Below, one piece after another: positions 6,697-45,099 of a DNA stretch of 64,000 bases. A program made the position numbers and the translations under genes. Origin of the DNA: Caulobacter segnis ATCC 21756 (GTDB lineage: Bacteria; Pseudomonadota; Alphaproteobacteria; Caulobacterales; Caulobacteraceae); the NCBI RefSeq assembly GCF_000092285.1, contig NC_014100.1, positions 1,240,001 through 1,304,000 of the forward strand. Reading direction: 5' to 3'. The notes beneath the pieces were generated by a model, which saw only the letters and a list, made by a program, of their open reading frames with translations, was not told the origin of the DNA and searched no databases. The first letter of the stretch is position 1. Each line of letters starts with the position of its first letter.

Positions 6697-6751
6697 GGGC
6701 CCATGATAGGCCGGTCGCTACATCAGCCAAGGACGCTTCGCCCCCGACTGG

Positions 6752-6821
6752 AAAAAAGAACGGCCGCCTTCCAGGAGGAGAAGGCGGCCGAGTCATTGGG
6801 AGGAAACGCCCGAAACGGGCT
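6752..6821 (-). ncRNA. Predicted small RNA with CUCC-rich loops and intrinsic terminator
   Basis: Read on the minus strand, a transcript beginning near 6821 would start with a short hairpin (GCCCG-TTT-CGGGC, 6820-6808). It continues through an unpaired TTTCCTCCCAATGACT, and ends with a perfect 10-bp stem GGCCGCCTTC / GAAGGCGGCC (6789-6780 with 6771-6762) and T6. The terminator loop is TCCTCCTG, so both exposed segments carry a CCTCC anti-Shine-Dalgarno sequence, as in several base-pairing alphaproteobacterial sRNAs. A promoter is visible upstream (next entry). No credible ORF explains the stretch. It could instead be merely the terminator of the ridA operon, but the independent promoter argues against that. 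Confidence 0.6.
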
Positions 6822-6827
6822 GAATTC

Positions 6828-6863
6828 CATATAGCTGTTTGAAGCGCCGCCGACAACGTTGTC
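6828..6863 (-). promoter_or_regulatory. Promoter plus palindromic operator of the predicted sRNA
   Basis: On the minus strand: -35 TTGTCG (6856-6851), a 17-base spacer, -10 TATATG (6833-6828), with a start point expected near 6821. The perfect 12-bp palindrome GACAACGTTGTC (6863-6852) overlaps the -35. The CG-centred symmetric form resembles LacI/GalR-family operators (family knowledge), so repression by a sugar-responsive regulator encoded elsewhere is plausible but inferred. Confidence 0.5.
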
Positions 6864-6895
6864 AGGGAAATTATTTCGCATAGCAGTGAAATAGT

Positions 6896-6938
6896 GGCGT
6901 CGCGCCAGACGCCGCTGTGGCGCGTCTGGCGCGACGCC
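6896..6938 (-). terminator. Long hairpin after the RidA-like gene
   Basis: A perfect 17-bp inverted repeat (6896-6912 with 6922-6938) with a 9-base loop lies 8 bases beyond the RidA-like stop codon. There is no T-run after it on the minus strand. It probably protects or terminates the amine oxidase operon transcript and insulates the sRNA promoter. Confidence 0.55.
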
Positions 6939-6946
6939 GCGCAAGC

Positions 6947-44916: not shown

Positions 44917-45017
44917 CTTTCCGCCCTCTTGAAGCCCGCCGCGTGGCTGCTTAGCTCAGTAACAGCGGGACCGGGCCCCTCTGGCGAGCGATGCAAGCGC
45001 TCGTGATGTCGGACCGC

Positions 45018-45099
45018 ATCGGGTGTTCTCGATGTCTTGGGTCCGGCCGCCTATGCCCCCCTCCCCGAAAGGCGCCGTGCTCGGTCGAGAACACCCGAT
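45018..45099 (+). repeat. Inverted repeat in the leader of the zinc-ribbon gene
   Basis: ATCGGGTGTTCTCGA (45018-45032) is exactly complementary to 45085-45099, with GTCC/GGAC segments inside that could extend pairing. The element ends 26 bp before the ATG at 45126. It may be a structured 5' leader or the boundary of a small RNA. Confidence 0.55.

Follow-up and report, generated by a model that had tools for sequence, protein, structure and literature searches.

The minus strand of a Caulobacter segnis ATCC 21756 stretch, part of the 64,000-nucleotide window analyzed in this study, was proposed from its letters to hold a self-contained small-RNA gene beneath a palindromic operator, which raises the questions of which RNA is encoded there and which regulator reads the operator. 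The promoter, the palindrome over its -35 element, the 5' hairpin, the exposed segment, and the terminator were all found where the original prediction had placed them (Table 1). TTGTCG is followed by TATATG after 17 bases on the minus strand, and we take this -10 element to be sigma-73-like. The sole promoter listed by a consensus promoter scan was at 6730-6703; the TTGTCG/TATATG promoter was absent from it because the scan demands a T at the sixth -10 position. With its ends placed by promoter and terminator, the predicted transcript runs from about 6821 to 6752 on the minus strand (~70 nt). The fold of 6821-6747 had an energy of -33.4 kcal/mol (z -4.58), which none of 200 shuffles equaled, and UUUCCUCCCA was unpaired when the fold was started at 6821, while starting at 6828 paired its first four letters with an upstream GGAA. 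One terminator was found by the terminator scan, versus a mean of 0.5 in shuffles. Mechanical ORFs do overlap the stretch, but the small indels by which the orthologs vary within it fit an RNA gene. A long inverted repeat (GGCGTCGCGCCAGACGC...GCGTCTGGCGCGACGCC) was also observed at 6895-6940, where it separates the small RNA promoter from the RidA gene and is possibly the RidA terminator.

Table 1. Features of the small RNA locus, in positions of the window.
Feature	Position	Strand	Basis
alphaR8 small RNA, RF00519 match	6747..6827	-	full-length model match 1-77
Operator GACAACGTTGTC, LacI-type palindrome and putative GluR site	6852..6863	.	7 exact genome sites; ortholog conservation
-35-like TTGTCG	6851..6856	-	overlaps operator right half
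-10-like TATATG (6833-6828) inside GCTATATG	6828..6835	-	CTATA invariant in 42 aligned operator-bearing orthologs
5' hairpin GCCCGTTTCGGGC, GCCC-UUU-GGGC type	6808..6820	-	fold
Exposed TTTCCTCCCA (RNA UUUCCUCCCA), family anti-Shine-Dalgarno seed	6797..6806	-	conservation, fold
Intrinsic terminator, 12 pairs, loop CCTCCT, then T-rich tail	6761..6790	-	fold, terminator scan

A cmscan search of the 64-kb window returned two RNA matches over the curated cut-offs. One was the RF00519 (suhB/mmgR) match at this locus, with 44.5 bits against a cut-off of 41. The segment UUUCCUCCCA agrees with the exposed 10-mer of the family, UUUCCUCCCU, in nine of ten letters and follows a weak hairpin, and the Rho-independent terminator of the family is present. 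The stretch is an alphaR8 (Sis-type) small RNA gene, a catalogued identity that the original prediction had been unable to supply. The N-formylglutamate amidohydrolase gene that usually neighbors the main alphaR8 copy is missing from this locus; it is not required, because extra copies of the family sit elsewhere (PMC12559287). The other match in the window was a terC RNA element (RF03067) at 44963-45021 on the plus strand (68.1 bits, cut-off 39.9).

The alphaR8 family includes MmgR and the C. crescentus RNAs SisA-D (CCNA_R0014, R0133, R0143, and R0157; PMC12559287). SisA represses a TonB receptor mRNA via the shared 10-mer, as proven by compensatory mutations, and each of the four RNAs base-pairs through its 10-mer with CrfA, a sponge RNA induced by carbon starvation (PMC12559287). 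The exposed segment of the present RNA is this same seed, which supports the earlier suggestion of an anti-Shine-Dalgarno regulator. SisA is described as nearly constitutive and adjoins an N-formylglutamate amidohydrolase gene, and the four Sis promoters are unrelated, with expression varying among glucose, maltose, and xylose media (PMC12559287). R157 and R133 bind Hfq (PMC6561178), and Hfq enrichments of 63.8, 51.7, 34.9, and 9.1 were reported for R0157, R0014, R0143, and R0133, respectively (PMC11005374). The four RNAs were classed as alphar15 in PMC6561178 and as alphaR8 in PMC12559287; the RF00519 match supports alphaR8.

Forty-four genomes of the genus carry this RNA at the equivalent position, which supports its reading as a small-RNA gene. 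A DNA search of 75 genus genomes (that of C. segnis included) with a 144-base query that contained the operator located it in 43 genomes; seven of these matches cover the RNA part only, and a second 36-base match in one genome (G028) was dropped. The 44th ortholog, in G035, was among the Rfam matches listed and lies outside the 43-sequence alignment. The total is at least 44, and further operator-less orthologs may have been missed. Of the 43 aligned orthologs, 30 had been retrieved with a pattern in which the operator is obligatory. In G034, an ortholog was not found among the four inspected of its five RF00519 matches (L025, L176-L178). All 44 orthologs keep at least one neighbor gene of the window alongside, namely fumarylacetoacetase or Rieske on one side and RidA, cytochrome c, amine oxidase, or GNAT on the other; the GNAT gene is the only shared neighbor in G035. 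C. vibrioides DSM 9893 has the same locus with the operator. Its counterpart in C. crescentus is probably one of SisB, SisC, and SisD, and gene order leads us to guess SisD.

Within the RNA, GGGCGTTTCCTCC was invariant in all 43 aligned orthologs, and the seed occurred in two variants, TTTCCTCCC (33 of 43) and TTTCCTCCT (10 of 43). In the terminator stem, 99.2% of the cells were paired and both-side changes were observed at 3 of 10 pairs, measures that 1 to 5 of 500 shuffles reached. Compensatory stem changes had been named as a check, and they were found, with one reservation: slid control stems scored lower and had fewer paired cells and fewer changed pairs, but the version slid by -2 had more both-side-changed cells than the true stem (8 versus 4). 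The covariation thus gives modest support to the RNA structure. Loop-length shifts blur the 5' stem in the alignment, so pair counting was confined to the terminator; RNAalifold favored a small hairpin in GGGCGTTTCCTCCC over the family's 5' hairpin. The terminator loop was retained among the related genomes, though not with the motif first assigned to it: CCTCC occurs in only 8 of 43 orthologs, and the conserved motif is CTCCTG (42 of 43). A regulatory role for both CUCC segments is supported only in part: the one in the loop is conserved and may be active.

The operator was strikingly conserved. Its exact sequence was present in 43 of the 44 orthologs (42 of the 43 aligned, and G035, where CTACA replaces CTATA). 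The exception was G050, a 76% complete assembly in which the terminator differs too. In the 42 aligned orthologs that carry the operator, the preceding T is invariant and CTATA begins 17 bases past the operator, while the 15 spacer columns in between average 0.37 bits and are nearly random. The position of the operator over the -35 element argues for repression. The operator followed after 20-50 bases by TTTCCTCCC was found in 32 of the 75 genus genomes, with none in the reversed control. A scan of GTDB r220 for the pattern gave 30 stretches, of which 22, that of C. vibrioides DSM 9893 among them, belong to Caulobacter genomes or to caulobacterial metagenome genomes (two placed by sequence or isolate name). 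The remaining eight, from Streptomyces (twice), Afipia, Achromobacter, a Bacilli genome, Corynebacterium, Microbacterium, and a Microbacteriaceae genome, were taken as chance matches.

Across the 4,655,622-base genome, GACAACGTTGTC has seven exact sites, and its reversed control has none; the numbers expected from the composition of the window were 0.13 for independent bases and 0.18 and 0.25 for Markov orders 1 and 2. Besides the site at this small RNA, one lies upstream of an MFS sugar-transporter gene (matched by the gluP and fucP models below their cut-offs), one before zwf (G6PD), one before ppdK (PPDK_N), two after a LacI-family gene and ahead of a TonB receptor gene, and one before a 103-amino-acid ORF with no Pfam match. 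With up to two mismatches, the 14-mer operator occurred at 22 genome places versus 3 in the reversed control, and a site with one mismatch was also found at 4090407. The site set used here comprises the exact sites and one two-mismatch site, TGACAGCCTTGTCA, which was included because of its position 49 bases before the putative gluR gene, a LacI-family gene that follows zwf, pgl, and edd as identified by Pfam.

GluR (CC2053) is a LacI-family protein that was proposed to leave DNA on glucose, and its regulon was predicted from three Caulobacter genomes to include zwf-pgl-edd-glk, pykA, gnl-gfo, ppdK, and sucABCD (PMC4052901). Among the seven exact sites, zwf and ppdK were the only named GluR targets, and pykA, gnl-gfo, and sucABCD were not represented. 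The assignment to GluR was made by target overlap and gene position rather than by the published 20-bp GluR consensus. The genome-wide site set, the overlap with the predicted regulon, and the conservation footprint together support, on sequence grounds, the LacI-type sugar control that had been suggested for this gene, and the most likely binder of the operator appears to be GluR. The distribution among genomes agrees: all 43 operator-bearing genomes fall among the 45 of 75 with a best GluR match of at least 76% identity, the other two being G034 and G050. The remaining 30 genomes, several of them incomplete, gave no locus match in the DNA search. This co-occurrence follows one clade and amounts to consistency, not independent proof. 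TGACAACGTTGTC was found in 51 of the 75 genomes, with 5-18 matches (both strands) in the 45 close-GluR genomes and 0-4 elsewhere.

Among the 150 of 438 RF00519 candidates that were scored in the C. segnis genome, four loci exceeded the cut-off and three fell short of it. The GACAACGTTGTC operator is absent from the three clear siblings of this RNA, which also have no CTCC after the core. One of them, L002 (3973314), was identified as the SisA-type copy because it adjoins an N-formylglutamate amidohydrolase gene (PF05013). The three loci below the cut-off (L005-L007) scored only 33.4, 32, and 29.4 bits and were not counted as siblings; the first two carry CUCCUCCC, and the third only UUUUCUCCCCC.

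Another of the clear siblings, L001 (1372033; 1371999-1372110), has a palindrome of its own, TGTTAGCGCTAACA, which ends 20 bases before its RF00519 match. No such palindrome was seen by eye before the siblings L002 and L003. When a single mismatch is allowed, the genome contains two instances of the motif, the one at L001 and, one mismatch away, TGTTAGCGCTACCA, and GCTTGCA precedes it by 9-10 bases in both promoters; at two mismatches it was hardly enriched (11 versus 5 in the control). TGTTAGCGCTACCA is flanked by a LacI-family gene, presumably xylR, and by a gene whose weak FAA_hydrolase match falls below the cut-off, presumably xylX. XylR, a LacI-family protein, represses PxylX via a 14-bp operator (PMC7198004). 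In the genus, TAGCGNTANCA followed after 30-55 bases by TTTCCTCCC was found in 27 of 75 genomes, with none in the reversed control. Among 30 alphaR8 loci (the best-scoring of the RF00519 matches listed, together with L001, and not a random sample), 26 matched the consensus, L025, L031, and L036 were variants, and L034 was of the SisA type. These observations suggest that the L001 palindrome is a LacI-type operator of the xylose type. The 103-amino-acid ORF has two sites upstream of it at 4052070-4052131, GACAACGTTGTC and, 36 bases away, TGGTACCGCTAACA, which differs from the xylose-type motif at two positions; this gene possibly answers to two sugar repressors.

The complement of the core, GGGAGGAAACG, occurs at six genome places: the four alphaR8 loci, L165, and L170 (4306294, minus strand). 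L170 is an intergenic hairpin with GGGGAGGAAACGCC followed by a second GC-rich hairpin; 14 consecutive bases in it are complementary to this small RNA, a potential for pairing. It is probably the ortholog of CrfA, as judged from these features, and it has G at position 54 and C at position 63 as published for CrfA, under a numbering offset that we chose (first G of GGGGAGG as 49).

Candidate targets were sought through the complement of the seed. GGGAGGA stands 4-11 bases before an ATG at 85 genome places, versus 8 in the reversed control, although ribosome-binding sites alone would produce an excess. At 16 of these places the sequence begins GGGAGGAA, with two of the frames only 24 and 21 codons long. 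Pfam searches of 10 of the 16 identified two TonB receptors, one protein without a family, and one each of an ADH-type oxidoreductase, an FMO-like protein, a 3-keto-disaccharide hydrolase, a GDSL lipase, a thiolase, a cellulase N-terminal domain protein, and a DNA polymerase III alpha-type protein; several of these candidates have no evident carbon role. A perfect TGTTACCGGTAACA palindrome was also observed at 3994725-3994753, directly before the GGGAGGA of the cellulase N-terminal domain gene.

We consider it likely that this alphaR8 small RNA was captured by a LacI-family repressor, most plausibly GluR, and acts as a glucose-released, CrfA-sponged repressor of alternative-carbon genes. Without glucose, GluR would sit on GACAACGTTGTC over the -35 element and block transcription. 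With glucose, GluR would leave, and the ~70-nt RNA would be made alongside the Entner-Doudoroff and sugar-uptake genes. Together with Hfq, UUUCCUCCCA would then pair with GGGAGG-type ribosome-binding sites and repress mRNAs whose products take up and degrade alternative carbon sources. During carbon starvation, CrfA would pair with the UUUCCUCCCA segment and remove the RNA, as reported for SisA-D.

Other readings of the same locus differ mainly in what the palindrome does. The operator could be read by a paralog of GluR (BglR-like) or by several LacI proteins, with another sugar as the signal. Three Caulobacterales paralogs of GluR have been named BglR1-3 (PMC4052901), seven LacI proteins of the genome match GluR with E below 1e-60, and one of these is encoded beside two of the seven sites, so the operator may have another binder. 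GluR itself is favored by the exact sites at zwf and ppdK and by the near-site before the LacI-family gene after the zwf operon, and we regard a reader other than GluR alone as rather unlikely. It is improbable that the palindrome is merely a conserved promoter element of an RNA that is constitutive or otherwise controlled. Its right half does overlap the -35 element, and SisA is nearly constitutive (PMC12559287), but the left half, which lies beyond the -35 element, is as invariant as the right half, six other exact sites exist, several of them at sugar genes, and the three clear siblings do without the palindrome. The least probable reading, which we would hardly credit, takes the stretch as the tail of a longer transcript or as the leader of the downstream gene (6696-6250, minus strand). 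Same-strand genes do flank the RNA on either side, yet it has a conserved promoter and terminator of its own and a full-length family match, and it is kept where homologs of RidA or ORF148 are missing from many of the fetched ortholog flanks.

The alphaR8 siblings might form a multi-sugar device for catabolite repression, a broader model on which we find ourselves evenly divided. Separate LacI-type repressors, GluR (for glucose) and an XylR-type protein (for xylose), would each release their own sibling; all siblings would have the same seed and overlapping alternative-carbon targets, and CrfA, made on carbon starvation, would cancel all of them. The paralogs would then be kept for their promoters and not for their RNA. 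The text of PMC12559287 consulted here leaves open why four similar small RNAs exist with unrelated promoters and carbon-dependent expression. A GluR-type operator at this gene and a xylose-type one at a second sibling would offer a concrete answer, in which each sibling reports a different sugar to shared targets, and would extend carbon control in Alphaproteobacteria by a level of RNA regulation. No link between an alphaR8 small RNA and GluR or XylR was found in the literature consulted, though the figures or supplements of PMC12559287 may already show such a dependence.

The RNA shares the family, hairpin, seed, and terminator layout with SisA-D, for which the consulted text of PMC12559287 describes neither a common promoter motif nor a regulator. 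The site set resembles the GluR regulon in the LacI-family gene beside zwf-pgl-edd and in the common zwf and ppdK sites; that regulon is itself a prediction, the term sRNA has no occurrence in the main text of PMC4052901, and the small RNA would be a new member. MmgR of Sinorhizobium meliloti is a single copy linked to PHB storage, with no such operator mentioned in the consulted text (PMC12559287). It belongs to the same Rfam family (RF00519) and has the same seed. A more distant parallel is found in carbon-responsive RNAs under CcpA, which we take to be a LacI-family protein. These are RsaI of S. aureus and RosA of B. subtilis, the latter a member of a sponge pair (PMC9266662, PMC8216469). 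CcpA represses them when glucose is plentiful, whereas the sign predicted here is the opposite, and in contrast to the RosA pair, the regulated RNA here would be the sponged partner.
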